The notes below the pieces were generated by a model that saw only the letters and a program-made list of their open reading frames with translations, made no database searches and had not been told where the DNA came from. The position numbers and the translations under genes were made by a program. Positions 59,986 to 63,783 of a stretch of 64,000 nt of DNA are shown here, piece by piece; position 1 is the first letter of the stretch, and the number at the start of each line of letters is the position of its first letter. This DNA is from Flavobacterium okayamense (lineage in GTDB: Bacteria; Bacteroidota; Bacteroidia; Flavobacteriales; Flavobacteriaceae), in assembly GCF_019702945.1 (NCBI RefSeq), contig NZ_AP024749.1, positions 2,604,001 to 2,668,000 on the forward strand, read 5' to 3'.

Positions 59986-60095
59986 ATTTATTTTTATATT
60001 TGATTTTGTTTGCAAAAACAAAAAAAACTAGTAAACCCTTCGCCAATCTTGCCAATATGGTATGATAGTAGTCCGAAATCTTCGCATATAAACAA
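59986..60095. other. Spacer before the attC-like array
   Basis: The 110 nt hold a TTTTGTTTGC/AAAACAAAA hairpin and lead into AACAAG at the first core site. I see no gene. It may be the insertion boundary of the cassette array. Confidence 0.4.
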
Positions 60096-60453
60096 GTTAG
60101 AACACATTCAGCTAAAGCTGACTTTTGTTGCTATATTTTGCTGCGCTAAATCCCACCCCAAAAGAAATGTGTTCTAACGACCTGCTAAACCAAATTGCTT
60201 GGAATATTTGCTATAATACAGCTTTAACTGCCCATCGAGGGAAAACGTGTACTAACATAAGCTAAAAGCAATTTGGCTCTATAATTTTTGCTCCCAATAA
60301 CCGAAATTTGAACCAATAACGTAAACTACGTTTACTATTGGACAATCAATTATCCGATTGGTAAACGGAAGTCCTTTAATCGGATAATTGCTCAACAAAT
60401 TTCTTATATTTACGCAAAAATCATAGAACTGCGTTTAGCAGGTCGTTGTAGGC
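60096..60453. repeat. ORF-less attC-like cassette (unit 0)
   Basis: The unit starts with GTTAGAACACATT (60096-60108). Its reverse complement, AATGTGTTCTAAC (60166-60178), opens the attC-like element at its end; the match is 13 of 13. Between them there is no ORF of note. The end of the unit is at the core GTTGTAGGC (60445-60453). It contains stems TCAGCT/AGCTGA, CCAAATTGCTT/AAGCAATTTGG (60190-60200, 60266-60276) and CAATTATCCGATT/AATCGGATAATTG (60347-60359, 60378-60390). Confidence 0.6.
60171..60453 (+). repeat. attC-like recombination element B
   Basis: The left core GTTCTAAC (60171-60178) is followed by ACGACCTGCTAAAC (60177-60190). The exact 14-nt reverse complement is GTTTAGCAGGTCGT (60433-60446), then right core GTTGTAGGC. 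TATATTTACGCAA (60405-60417) and TATATTTG (60454-60461) resemble -7 boxes reading into the next gene. Confidence 0.6.
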
Positions 60454-60505
60454 TATATTTGCTCAACTAAACCTTTAATAAATTAGTAACTTAACAACGT
60501 TAATT

Positions 60506-62176
60506 ATGAAGAACAAATTCAAATTTTTAATTGCAAGTCTTTCTATTGCAATGTTATTTCTTTCATCCTGCGAAAAAGAAATCTATGATGATGCTATTTA
60601 CAAATCGCAACAACCACAAAATTTAAGTATTAGTAAAATTAGTTTTAAAGAACTTAAATCTAATAAAAATGTGGTTGAAAAAATTAAAAGTGTAATGACT
60701 AAAAAACTGCCAACTTCAATTGCAAATCGTGCAGTTTATAATGAAGATTTTGGGGTTTTAATAGACACTACAAATATTGTTCAAATGACAAGTGCTACTG
60801 AACAATCTATAACTTTTAACATTGTTGATTATACTGATTCAACAAAAAAAGAAAACTTAGTGTTAGTTTCTAAAAACGACGGAAACTTTGAAGCTTATAT
60901 TGCTGAATATAATTTAACGCAACAAGATTTAGATATTTTAGCAAGTGGTGGAACGCTTCAAAATATTCAACCAACAAGTATTTCAGAAATCGAAAACGCT
61001 TCTAAAATTGCCGTATCTGGTGCATGTGTTTCTTCATATACCTATACTTATAGCGCTTGCTATAATTCAAGTGGTGATATTATTTTTAATAATGGAGAAT
61101 TAGGAAATGGTTGTGTTGGAATGGGTTTTGATTATGAAATGCAAGTAATAACTATAGATATGGCTTGTCTTGCAGATGGTGGAGGCGGAGGAACTTCTGG
61201 CACATCAGGTACAAGTGGTACAGGTACAAGCGGAACAGGAACCACAGGTTCTGGGCCTACTGGAGGTTCAACTAATACAGGAAGTAACAACCCTAATCCT
61301 AATCAAAGTATTTTAGATTTATTTAATACAACTTTTGTACCCTGCACTTCATGTTTAGAATTTAACCAAACTCTAAGCAACTTTTTAGTAGATTTATCTC
61401 CAGAACAATTAGAGTATTGGAATGATTTATCAGCATATCCAAGAATTCAACAAACAATTGTTGATTATTTAGAAGCAAATAATAGTTCTACTCAAAGTAT
61501 AGCATTTGCAATTAATGCAATTGAAGATTTGAACAATAATGAATGTACAATATTACCTTCTGTAACAAATCCATTAGATATTGTTGCTAATTTTGATTCA
61601 AGTTTTTTTGGAAGTTATCCAGAAGATCAAATTGAACATGATCATGATGCAATTCAACAACAATTTAATATTATCAGAAGTACACAAGGAAATTTAGCAG
61701 CTGTTACTTATTTGATAAATATTTACGATTTAAATAACTTTCGTAATGGCTATTATGTTAACACTAACTACACTATCACTTTTGAAAATGGATTATCTAA
61801 TGGAGCACATGCTAATGCGATAAGACAGTTTACAAATGGTGTTTTAACTTCATGTAATCTTGAAATTGATACTAATCTATTTTCAATTTCTGATTTTGGA
61901 TATATAACAAGAGTAATTAAACATGAATTACTTCATGTATTGCAAGGCGAAATTCATGGTCAAACTCAATCTGTTGCCCTTCAAGAATTTCAAGCTTATT
62001 ACAATCAACTTTTTGGTTTTACCGATTTAAAAAAATTACAAGATGTTGGGATTGTTGAAGGTTTGTTAGATAAATTGATTGAAAATATGAATCAATTAAG
62101 TGATTCTGAAAAATTACAAAATAAACGTCAAATAGATTTTATAAAACTACATTATCCTGAATTATGCAAAAGATAA
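60506..62176 (+). CDS. Lipoprotein with Gly/Ser/Thr linker and HExxH C-terminus, polymorphic-toxin-like
   Basis: 556 residues. Lipobox (cysteine 22 in FLSSC), then an N-terminal beta-rich region (about 30-220, with SITFNIVDYT and NLVLVSKNDGNFEAYIAEYNLTQQDL) containing several cysteines. A low-complexity linker follows (225-266, nearly all G, S, T, N, P). A helical segment (270-355, with PEQLEYWND) precedes a C-terminal domain with H473-E-L-L-H477, an HExxH zinc-protease motif, and E494 as possible third ligand. The modular plan is like that of Bacteroidota polymorphic toxins. It overlaps the next gene by 13 nt and is in one cassette with it. Enzymatic activity is inferred only. Confidence 0.6.
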   Translation: MKNKFKFLIASLSIAMLFLSSCEKEIYDDAIYKSQQPQNLSISKISFKELKSNKNVVEKIKSVMTKKLPTSIANRAVYNEDFGVLIDTTNIVQMTSATEQSITFNIVDYTDSTKKENLVLVSKNDGNFEAYIAEYNLTQQDLDILASGGTLQNIQPTSISEIENASKIAVSGACVSSYTYTYSACYNSSGDIIFNNGELGNGCVGMGFDYEMQVITIDMACLADGGGGGTSGTSGTSGTGTSGTGTTGSGPTGGSTNTGSNNPNPNQSILDLFNTTFVPCTSCLEFNQTLSNFLVDLSPEQLEYWNDLSAYPRIQQTIVDYLEANNSSTQSIAFAINAIEDLNNNECTILPSVTNPLDIVANFDSSFFGSYPEDQIEHDHDAIQQQFNIIRSTQGNLAAVTYLINIYDLNNFRNGYYVNTNYTITFENGLSNGAHANAIRQFTNGVLTSCNLEIDTNLFSISDFGYITRVIKHELLHVLQGEIHGQTQSVALQEFQAYYNQLFGFTDLKKLQDVGIVEGLLDKLIENMNQLSDSEKLQNKRQIDFIKLHYPELCKR

Positions 62177-62775
62177 TTAAACAATCTCTTTTATATGTAT
62201 TTATCACTTTTTTTATTTTTGGGTGTAAAACACACACAAGTAAAATTGAAGGTGAGTATTTTAATGATCTAGATTTTGACCATATAAAAAATCTAACAAA
62301 AAATGTTAATTTAGATAGTATTAGGTCAAATACCTCTGATTTTTACGACATTGAAATTTGTTCGAAACCAAATAAAAAGGTTTTTAATTTGGAAGAGAAA
62401 AAACTATTTTCAATGCAGATAACAAACTATGGAACAAAAGAATTATATCTACCTGAGTGGTTTAGAAATAATAAAGATTATAATAATGTAGAAATGACTT
62501 TCGAAATCTATAAAAAAGAAAAAGATAAGTATATAAAATACATTCAAAAAAGAATGAAAACCGACATTTTTAGACATCCAGCAATAAACCATCCAAAAAG
62601 AGTTATTTTTGAAACAAACAAAGGTAAACACATAGCTTATGAGAATATATGGTTTGACATTTACCAAAAAATAGTTGATGAAGGTTCATATAACGCAAAA
62701 ATTTATATTGACCTTTCAAACTTTGGATATTTTAAGATACTTGAAACAGAATTATTTTTTGAAGTAAAAGAATAA
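62164..62775 (+). CDS. Lipoprotein overlapping the HExxH protein, possible immunity protein
   Basis: 203 residues, lipobox FFIFGC (cysteine 21) followed by K-T-H-T-S. The mature part is charged, with Lys/Tyr/Phe-rich strands, FSMQITNYGTKELYLPEWF and I-Y-I-D-L-S-N-F-G-Y-F. No family is recognised. It begins 13 nt before the end of the upstream gene, on the same strand, and shares its cassette. The paired lipoproteins make an immunity or partner role plausible, because both would sit in the same compartment. This is inference. Confidence 0.5.
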   Translation: MQKIIKQSLLYVFITFFIFGCKTHTSKIEGEYFNDLDFDHIKNLTKNVNLDSIRSNTSDFYDIEICSKPNKKVFNLEEKKLFSMQITNYGTKELYLPEWFRNNKDYNNVEMTFEIYKKEKDKYIKYIQKRMKTDIFRHPAINHPKRVIFETNKGKHIAYENIWFDIYQKIVDEGSYNAKIYIDLSNFGYFKILETELFFEVKE

Positions 62776-62781
62776 ATACAG

Positions 62782-62918
62782 CCTACAACCACAGTTTGTA
62801 GCAATAGCGACTTTCAGGATAAACTGAAAGTCGTTTTTGTAATTGTAAAGGTTCATGATTTATTAAAAGTTTTGGTATATTTGATCGCTACTGATACAAG
62901 CTGTATAACGTTAGCGCC
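62782..62918 (+). repeat. attC-like recombination element A
   Basis: The left core CCTACAAC (62782-62789) is the exact reverse complement of the GTTGTAGG that opens this cassette at 60445. An outer imperfect inverted repeat pairs CAGTTTGTAGCAATAGCGA with TCGCTACTGATACAAGCTG. Inside is a perfect stem CGACTTTCAG/CTGAAAGTCG (62808-62817, 62824-62833). The right core is GTTAGCGCC (62910-62918). TATATTTG (62876-62883) reads toward the next gene. Confidence 0.65.
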
Positions 62919-62944
62919 AATTTTAAAACGACACCAGCAGAACA

Positions 62945-63637
62945 ATGGGAATATTTGACATTTTTAAGAAGCCTAACAACGGAAGCAATCCCAAAACGGC
63001 TGAACAGAGAAAGAAACAAACCGAAAAATACTTAAAATCTTTAAACATTCCATTCATTGACCATTTACCATTGATTGAAGAAGAAAGTGAAGTAAAAATC
63101 AGGACAGCCCAAGAAATTGCTGAACGAATTTTAGTTTTGGTTTATCTTGCATACGTTTCCGAAGTTCCTGATGAAACAGAAAGCATAATTGACTTTTTAA
63201 AAACAAATTCACTTTGGGATAAAGTTTCGCCAGACGAGAAAGAACTATTTCAAAAAGAAGAACTGACAGAACAAGAAACTGCAAATATTTCTTGGCGTTC
63301 AGAAGGAGTATGGCTATTGCTTTGGACAATCAAAAAAGTTGACAAACTTGAATTACCGACCGAACAAGTTCAGATACCAGAAATTGTTTCACGACTTCCT
63401 GAGTTTCTAACTGACCCGACTGAATTTATTAAAAATGCCAAGGTTAGACGGACAACAGAAATACTTGATGAGTCAGATTTGATTTATAGACTACATTGGG
63501 CGACAAGAAACTCTAACTTAAATAATCAACAAATGCCTGCAAATTTGGATTTGGGTATAATAATGGAAAGACATTATGCGATTAATTGGGTAACATTTTA
63601 CGCCGACGAATGGGACGAAATATCAACAGACACATAA
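62945..63637 (+). CDS. DUF4272 domain-containing protein
   Basis: 230 residues. VKIRTAQEIAERILVLVYL, ISWRSEGVWLLLWTI, RRTTEILDESDLIYRLHWATR and MERHYAINWVTFYADEW match DUF4272, a cytosolic family of unknown function, over nearly the full length. The first ~20 residues (GIFDIFKKPNNGSN) are a common adaptor. It starts 27 nt after the core GTTAGCGCC and ends 11 nt before the next core, so it is the only gene of a cassette-like unit. Relatives are frequent in accessory regions. Confidence 0.85.
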   Translation: MGIFDIFKKPNNGSNPKTAEQRKKQTEKYLKSLNIPFIDHLPLIEEESEVKIRTAQEIAERILVLVYLAYVSEVPDETESIIDFLKTNSLWDKVSPDEKELFQKEELTEQETANISWRSEGVWLLLWTIKKVDKLELPTEQVQIPEIVSRLPEFLTDPTEFIKNAKVRRTTEILDESDLIYRLHWATRNSNLNNQQMPANLDLGIIMERHYAINWVTFYADEWDEISTDT

Positions 63638-63644
63638 TAAAAAC

Positions 63645-63783
63645 TGGTGCTAACAGCCGTTTATTGCAATTGCTAGGCTCGGTGTGTGTTCGGAATTTTC
63701 TCCGAAAATTCCACGAGGAGTTTTGTACTTGTAATCTTTTATTATAAATTTACGCAACTGCCACAAGCGGCAACACGTTAGGC
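63645..63783 (+). repeat. attC-like recombination element C
   Basis: TGGTGCTAAC (63645-63654) matches, 9 of 10, the reverse complement of the GTTAGCGCCA that opens this unit. An outer imperfect inverted repeat pairs GCCGTTTATTGCAATTGC with GCAACTGCCACAAGCGGC. The inner stem is GGAATTTT/AAAATTCC (63692-63699, 63705-63712). The right core GTTAGGC (63777-63783) fits the integron GTTRRRY consensus. TATAAATTTACGCAA (63743-63757) is the -7-like motif. Confidence 0.7.

Follow-up and report, generated by a model that had tools for sequence, protein, structure and literature searches.

Results

The window analysed here, a stretch of 64,000 nucleotides from the single-contig genome of Flavobacterium okayamense (NZ_AP024749.1, positions 2,604,001 to 2,668,000), bears at its right end an array of gene cassettes that is, in all likelihood, a member of a new Bacteroidota lineage of integrons, found here without its integrase. 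In a preliminary description, the interval 60096..63783 had been regarded as integron-like cassettes moved by a site-specific recombinase not encoded in the window. This interval indeed belongs to the array, which however is larger and extends from 59990 to 65512 (window numbering), running past the window end, with the window holding its left part. Behind an attI-like leader, six cassettes follow in the order A, B, C, D, A' and E (Table 1; sequence read on in the genome), the units being chained head to tail through folded sites. Computation established the site anatomy, the complementarity of the cassette ends, a folding bias, the adjacency of integrase and attI in relatives and the sharing of cassettes, and found no integrase in this genome. 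Movement of gene cassettes by an absent recombinase is supported by this anatomy and by comparison, i.e., by sites recurring in other genomes, sharing with Dyadobacter, the attI locus of genome G082 and integrase genes directly upstream of attI in relatives.

Cassette starts pair with their own attC-like sites

The attC-like sites run from an R'' box ending in AAC over a linker to a core beginning with GTT, and the initial about 10 nt of each unit are the complement of R'' in its own downstream site. All sequences given in the preliminary description were found at their positions, and the three spacers singled out there correspond to the sites belonging to cassettes A, B and C. At the start of cassette A, GTTAGAACACATT (60096-60108) pairs with AATGTGTTCTAAC (60166-60178) at 13 of 13 positions. 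Likewise, GTTGTAGGC at 60445 pairs with GCCTACAAC (62781-62789), and GTTAGCGCCA at 62910 with TGGTGCTAAC (63645-63654) at 9 of 10 positions, with one mismatch, and the partner of GTTAGGC at 63777 is GTTGCCTAAC at 64321-64330, outside the window.

Such matches had been considered beyond chance, which is true for the cassette family as a whole but not for single 9-nt pairs. When contiguous complementary bases were counted for the 1169 occurrences of GTT in the leftmost 59 kb of the window, allowing any AAC partner within 3 kb, at least 8 bases were reached at 13.7% of the GTT sites, 9 bases at 4.2%, 10 bases at 1.0%, and 12 or 13 bases at none. Hence, 9-nt pairs taken singly prove little, as 4.2% of GTT sites reach this length by chance. 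For the family-wide test, 103 consecutive cassettes from 13 genomes were compared at the seven variable positions (4-10) of the cassette start, referred to as the tag, with pairs of each cassette start and the R'' of another cassette serving as control. All seven positions are complementary in 60 of the 103 cassettes versus 0.57% of the control pairs, and six or seven in 89 versus 4.9%, which bears out the rule that a unit start is complementary to R'' of its own far-end site. Without the window's own genome, the exact matches amount to 57/89 and those at six or more positions to 83/89. In the window's genome itself, only 3 of 14 cassettes are exact because R1, a covariance model trained on 17 attC-like sites from the same genome, misses the geneless units standing between gene cassettes. 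Chaining of units by tag alone resulted in many false partners in AT-rich DNA, and scored chains ran outside arrays or took wrong partners; array boundaries were then drawn manually, relying on links whose arms pair strongly.

Structured intergenic spacers with fortuitous or terminator-like complementarity would be compatible with 9-nt complementarity at 4.2% of GTT sites, but this explanation is contradicted by the family-wide tag and linker controls and by the sharing with Dyadobacter at exact boundaries (see below), leaving it a negligible probability.

Anatomy of the attC-like sites

From 130 R1 matches in fetched loci, six were dropped (three at contig ends, one 72-nt remnant and two weak matches with E values of 0.0025 and 0.021), and one of the 124 sites kept did not have AAC or GTT in place, resulting in a set of 123 sites from 14 genomes. 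Classical attC sites have the consensus RYYYAAC for R'' and GTTRRRY for the core. The latter, cited for integron cassettes in the preliminary description, does not hold for the sites described here, as only 7 of 123 cores fit GTTRRRY and only 7 of 123 R'' boxes fit RYYYAAC, whereas GTTR is present in all 123.

Among the 89 cassettes with six or seven tag matches, position 11 lacks Watson-Crick pairing throughout, being A.C in 80 of them, and pairing is back at positions 12-15 (97, 94, 87 and 74%, respectively). A second A.C mismatch is found at 5' position 15 of the inner stem in 63 of 66 non-redundant linkers, with both neighbours paired (94 and 97%). On the bottom strand, both fixed mismatches are G.T wobbles. 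Folding of the elements, proposed as a check in the preliminary description, favoured the bottom strand of the excised form in 82 of 89 sites by a mean of 3.3 kcal/mol (Wilcoxon p 4e-15; folding energy only). In classical attC sites, the strand is marked by extrahelical bases, an unpaired central spacer and a variable tip (PMC8946536); by analogy, the fixed wobbles might represent another code for strand marking.

Many linkers contain a promoter-like box, TAnnTTTG, on the top strand (42 of 89, versus 2 on the bottom strand and 5.6 in shuffles). It precedes the core by a median of 54 nt, mostly by 42-45, 53-55 or 68-72 nt, and is accompanied by an upstream TTG at -33 spacing in 7 linkers. As linker families are related, the counts for box and folding are not independent observations.

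Gene bodies and linkers are exchanged separately

From the comparison of linkers, 169 pairs with at least 80% identity were obtained, 156 of which have both flanks at 60% identity or less (ungapped, positions 21-100); among the remaining similar-linker pairs, the downstream flank is common to 10 and the upstream flank to 3. Identity is 1.0 at AAC and GTT and falls to 0.2-0.5 at most positions outside the linker, with higher values at positions 4 and 8 (0.6-0.75) and at mismatch position 11 (0.91-0.99). Conversely, cassette C shares 87% DNA identity with Dyadobacter sp. CY356 from 62909 to 63655 of the window, i.e., from core to R'', and the similarity stops there. Since similar linkers have unlike flanks and cassette C is shared only from core to R'', the tags evidently stay with their gene bodies and the linkers are replaced. 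For the DUF4272 protein of cassette C, seven relatives were found in genome_contigs, with an R1 match at E 0.1 in three of these loci. Arrays of the Vibrio cholerae repeat (VCR) likewise hold near-identical sites behind unrelated genes. In contrast to VCR arrays, the R box tag goes with the gene here, making the breakpoints of shared linkers visible.

These data also bear on the possibility that the units are terminal-inverted-repeat elements, i.e., a transposon family or miniature inverted-repeat transposable elements, with imperfect repeats of 13-15 bp moved by another enzyme. Gene bodies flanked by inverted copies of their own tag and a geneless 352-bp unit present at 15 places of the genome would fit such elements. 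However, tags vary from unit to unit and linkers are shared, the units stand in one orientation, head to tail, behind attI, and relatives have an integrase at the array head, rendering this explanation highly improbable.

Further arrays in the genome of F. okayamense

The geneless 352-bp unit (14 full copies and one partial) shows 97-100% identity between copies, nine of which stand between the gene cassettes of one array at 1.81-1.83 Mb. The unit copies at 1.814-1.828 Mb are highly structured, with promoter, terminator or non-coding RNA as candidate roles. Altogether, five arrays were read in this genome, each opening with a TAnnTTTG box and an attI-like leader; R2, a sequence-only model of 13 leaders, gives seven attI matches in all, two of them additional to those of the five arrays. 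The R1 model, which realizes the custom attC covariance search suggested in the preliminary description, recovers sites both here and in relatives, with 22 sites in this genome at E 0.01 and 25 at E 1 (17 sites of this genome having served for training), but does not detect the 266-nt sites of geneless units.

As also suggested there, the genome was searched for intI or another tyrosine recombinase. No match over the cut-off was found anywhere in the single contig, either within or outside the window. The best segments in the profile TIGR02249 are those of XerC and XerD with at most 71 bits, compared to per-segment scores of 107-128 bits in relatives, and none of the tyrosine recombinases of this genome, XerC, XerD and others, scores like the array integrase. 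A 96-aa recombinase fragment (genome positions 2519712-2519918) was considered as a relic of IntI and rejected on inspection by eye, as it resembles the C-terminus of CTnDOT-type enzymes. With at least two attC-like sites and no integron integrase, the genome corresponds to the definition of a cluster of attC sites lacking integron integrases (CALIN), the sites being detected by R1 rather than by the published attC model.

Integrase of relatives

From relatives, 13 integrase loci were fetched. In 10 of them, R1 sites follow the integrase in its own orientation; the contigs of G009 and G207 break off a short way past the integrase, after an attI core, and the G060b locus shows no R1 site. The common form of the integrase has 347 residues, with domains PF13495 and PF00589 and an N-terminal module of about 65 residues that, by eye, seems to recur in forms of 552 and 580 residues. 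In databases, these proteins are named site-specific integrase, integrase/recombinase XerD or site-specific tyrosine recombinase/integron integrase. Eight whole integrases score 204-219 bits in TIGR02249, below its curated cut-off of 265, and 193-231 bits in NF040815 (Xer/XerA), which has a cut-off of 220. Scored per segment, the TIGR02249 cut-off is not exceeded in any of 199 genomes of the genus, and an IntI-like segment at E 1e-30 is present in 87 of them.

Between the motifs KGxKDR and HxLRHS, 14 of the integrases have 64-65 residues versus 106 in eight IntI, i.e., the IntI insertion of about 41 residues (the patch) is missing. Accordingly, IntI4 (2a3v) aligns as two stretches with about 42 extra residues in between. 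According to PMC8138268, integrons cannot function without this patch in the catalytic domain of IntI. A tree built from 28 sequences places the 14 Bacteroidota integrases in one clade (97/95), with an Acinetobacter homologue inside, and groups this clade with nine IntI, away from Xer (97/92). Judged from these alignments and the tree, the integrase of the relatives appears to be a patch-less sister clade of IntI. In a structure model (mean pLDDT, the predicted local distance difference, 80.6; pTM, the predicted template modelling score, 0.50), the best PDB matches are XerA-like 4a8e and 5hxy and IntI4 2a3v. With Xer/XerA, the integrase has in common the short patch-less catalytic domain and the scores in NF040815; unlike Xer/XerA, it forms a separate clade, adjoins cassette arrays and bears the extra N-terminal module.

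These findings argue against an ordinary CALIN, that is, against classical cassettes deposited by a conventional IntI that has been lost or acts in trans. Such an origin would account for the general layout with core, attI, folded bottom strand and array, and PMC8618304 and PMC9668308 describe integrase-less site clusters as common in bacteria. Against it stand the lack of TIGR02249 segment matches over cut-off in the 199 genomes of the genus, the rarity of GTTRRRY and RYYYAAC (7/123 each), the R1 scores not exceeding 6.9 bits when one class 1 integron region was searched, and the patch-less nature of the adjacent integrases, making an ordinary CALIN improbable. Correspondingly, the array resembles a CALIN in being a site array in a genome without integrase, but differs in the sequence type of its sites and in the attI with promoter-like box heading each of the five arrays.

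Long integrase forms with N-terminal modules and open frames of about 550-610 residues were observed at L068 (6691-8349), L069 (3268-5010), G137:C256 and G149:C242; judged by their DUF1801 protein, G137 and G149 are closest to the window's genome among the relatives sampled. The system was also encountered on a plasmid of Chryseobacterium sp. SNU WT5 (L154, NZ_CP041688.1, 9001-19041), comprising a 347-aa integrase, an attI with an R2 score of 20.5 bits and five R1 sites, of which four are full-length and the fifth is truncated where the locus ends; therefore, it also travels on plasmids. A C. oryzae plasmid (L155) has an attI, and an R1 site was not found on it. On a plasmid of Acinetobacter baylyi (L156, NZ_CP104735.1, 2504-4607), a 5'-truncated integrase homologue with 53.8% identity to the array integrase over residues 127-347 precedes the start of tet(X3) by about 190 bp. 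The resistance gene is followed by an attC-like R'' half site, recognized by eye, and the core before tet(X3) does not match this R''. Neither R1 nor R2 gave a match around tet(X3). From this arrangement, a cassette origin of tet(X3) is possible.

Occurrence of sites and attI leaders

Outside the window's genome, related elements are widespread, answering the question of the preliminary description whether they occur in other Flavobacteriaceae. R1 sites were found at E 0.01 in 22 of 25 genomes of the genus (own included), with up to 61 in one genome, at E 1e-4 in 158 of 199 (best 16 candidates per genome), and in a phylum sample in 161 of 395 genomes and 93 of 170 genera (best 8 candidates per genome). 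Sites are present in 78 of the 87 genomes with integrase versus 80 of 112 without (Fisher p 0.0015), and their median number is 9 versus 2 (p 1.5e-7; best 16 candidates per genome), p-values that are optimistic as species are not independent. The state of the window, sites without a detected enzyme, is common in the genus.

The leader model R2 yields 898 matches in 151 of 199 genomes of the genus at E 0.01 (best 20 candidates per genome). Among 150 listed leaders, 26 follow an integrase segment at a distance of 285-301 bp (8 of the 26 being R2 training rows), and none lies within 3 kb of an integrase segment in another arrangement. A motif search located the attI core in 11 of the 13 integrase loci. 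Its distance from the integrase stop amounts to 92-104 bp in eight loci of the same type as the window, to 36 bp in G016, to 155 bp in G011 and to 158 bp in G009, the leaders of the last two looking different; for G023 and G060b the search gave no core, though a core-like sequence is visible by eye. From 21 leaders inspected in eight genomes, two are without a clear core and two (G127) stand beside the integrase. For the other 17, R'' downstream is complementary at 9-10 of 10 positions in 13, at 8 of 10 in three and not present in one, and in 10 of the 13 it lies within 17 nt after an open reading frame (ORF) stop. R1 sites were seen at only some of the inspected loci. Given the downstream R'' at 13 of 17 leaders, a dispersed attI with one or few cassettes seems to be common. 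In G051, G154, G017, G093 and G005, at least 18-20 leader matches per genome were counted besides 1-8 R1 sites. The attI copies may be relics of lost integrases or copied leaders.

The fixed distance of attI behind the integrase in the 26 listed cases, the higher number of sites in genomes having the integrase and the distinctness of the integrase clade from Xer all contradict the idea that the host recombinases XerC and XerD move the cassettes and that the adjacent integrase of relatives is incidental. XerC and XerD are present in the window's genome, which without an array integrase holds 97-100% identical geneless copies; all the same, there is very little chance that this explanation is correct.

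At the locus of the window, G082 has an orthologous attI (77.5% over 138 bp) beside the peptidase gene, with one different cassette and a cut-short linker (by eye), and the gene to its left is one which the window's genome has about 2.6 kb farther in that direction. As this attI holds another cassette, attI seems to be old at this place with changing cargo. In G023, a site ends beside the same right flank as in the window. As examples of an empty site, G137 and G149 failed since other genes sit there: in G137, the DUF1801 and peptidase pair encloses other genes, with no R1 or R2 match in the interval, and in G149, other genes follow DUF1801. Genes similar to AAA/TOPRIM and DUF262 genes were noticed by eye beside DUF1801 in G137 (L106) and G149 (L107), which suggests a defence-type hot spot.

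Features of the array

The array promoter box TATATTTG is presumably a Bacteroidota-type -7 box (motif TAnnTTTG). To the right of the last core, the 3' end of a peptidase gene, which we take to be pepD, follows on the opposite strand. The ORFs of cassette B have no Pfam match, no transposase domain was found by Pfam in the five cassette ORFs scanned, and within the window no Rfam family reaches its gathering score.

Table 1. Parts of the six-cassette array (window numbering; positions above 64,000 lie beyond the window end).
Feature	Position	Strand	Basis or remark
Array promoter box, putative Pc	59995..60002	+	TATATTTG; sequence; TAnnTTTG-like box similarly placed after integrase stop in related loci
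attI-like leader	59990..60098	+	R2 match at genome positions 2663996-2664100 (leader itself in R2 training), alignment with 12 other leaders
Conserved attI block CATATAAACAAGTT	60085-60098	+	putative cleavage at G60096^TT
Cassette A, geneless unit with 266-nt site	60097..60445	+	R'' AATGTGTTCTAAC 60166-60178
Cassette B, two ORFs	60446..62910	+	site 93.7 bits by R1 (included in R1 training)
556-aa ORF, cassette B	60506..62176	+	lipoprotein-like N-terminus, HELLH motif, both by eye
203-aa ORF, cassette B	62164..62775	+	lipoprotein-like, by eye
attC-like site, cassette B	62781..62912	+	R'' 62781-62789, linker 62790-62909, core GTT 62910
Cassette C, DUF4272 gene	62911..63777	+	87% DNA identity to Dyadobacter over 62909-63655
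DUF4272 ORF, 230 aa, cassette C	62945..63637	+	PF14094, 211.5 bits
attC-like site, cassette C	63645..63779	+	R'' 63645-63654, linker 63655-63776, core GTT 63777
Cassette D, crossing window end	63778-64450	+	ORF 63796-64329, R'' end 64330, core 64450
A', second geneless copy	64451-64799	+	
Cassette E, GNAT acetyltransferase gene	64800-65510	+	terminal core at 65510

Discussion

Assignment of the array to a new Bacteroidota lineage of integrons has to be weighed against several observations. In 14 of 103 cassettes, 8 of them from the window's genome, fewer than six of seven tag positions are matched. The top strand is more stable in 6 of 89 sites, with one tie. TAnnTTTG is frequent in AT-rich DNA, and the shuffles preserved base composition only. 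The integrase tree comprises 28 sequences with few Xer rows and long branches, its root being for drawing only. Sites are present in 80 of 112 genomes without a detected integrase (the threshold for integrase segments, E 1e-30, being strict), and no site at E 1e-4 was seen in 9 of the 87 genomes having the integrase. Presence of attI shows no association with the integrase (69/87 versus 82/112, p 0.40). Finally, no such integrase was found in the window's genome, so that the array may or may not be active in this strain.

With classical integrons, the system has in common head-to-tail cassettes with a G^TT core, a stabler folded bottom strand, a geneless cassette, attI and a promoter-like box at the array head and, in relatives only, a related tyrosine recombinase beside attI. 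In contrast to classical integrons, this integrase is patch-less, bears an N-terminal module and scores below the TIGR02249 cut-off, and the core is not GTTRRRY but GTTR plus 6-7 free but self-complementary bases. Also different are the two fixed A.C/G.T positions, the promoter-like box within many sites, the attI copies away from the integrase (49 of the 75 leaders listed for integrase-bearing genomes) and the separate shuffling of gene body and linker. According to the IntegronFinder 2.0 paper (PMC9024848), one complete Bacteroidetes integron was found, in Salinibacter ruber, an earlier study having reported only integrases without sites. A survey (PMC2426708) found intI in the Bacteroidetes/Chlorobi group and kept only patch-bearing genes. 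Searches restricted to the open-access PMC literature for integrons in Bacteroidota or Flavobacteria yielded no account of such cassette arrays in this phylum.

A mechanism can be proposed for the new lineage, in which recombination would proceed on the single bottom strand via circular intermediates. A promoter and an attI-like site (CATATAAACAAG^TT) would receive circular gene cassettes. The cassette end, an imperfect palindrome of about 120 nt, is predicted to fold on its bottom strand into a hairpin. Its outer R stem, built from the two ends of the cassette itself, would consist of 10 bp, a G.T wobble and another 4-5 bp, followed by a short spacer left unpaired, an inner L stem bearing the second fixed G.T wobble and a variable tip. 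The tyrosine recombinase, probably the sister of IntI without patch and with the added N-terminal module, would recognize the folded bottom strand and join the core of the site to G^TT in attI or in a further site. Like the extrahelical bases of classical attC, the fixed wobbles could serve to mark the strand, and the promoter-like box in many sites would point into the next cassette. In the genome of F. okayamense, the integrase has presumably been lost formerly or is provided in trans.

A far-reaching version of this proposal, which is tentative and somewhat less likely than its opposite, would be a second, phylum-wide integron branch that split from IntI before the patch was acquired, with many dispersed attI served in trans and bipartite cassettes, consisting of gene bodies with a private 10-nt tag at either end and of swappable promoter-bearing hairpin linkers. 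Linkers could be swapped, for example, if strands were exchanged a second time between two folded hairpins, at AAC and GTT; it is a guess that this happens here.

The finding would reopen the question of how integrons evolved from Xer-like recombinases, along with those of the need for the patch in recombination of folded sites and of the origin of cassettes. The genetic context of tet(X3) may be concerned as well. If the bipartite structure is true, it would give a concrete route by which new genes gain attC, that is, a route of cassette genesis.

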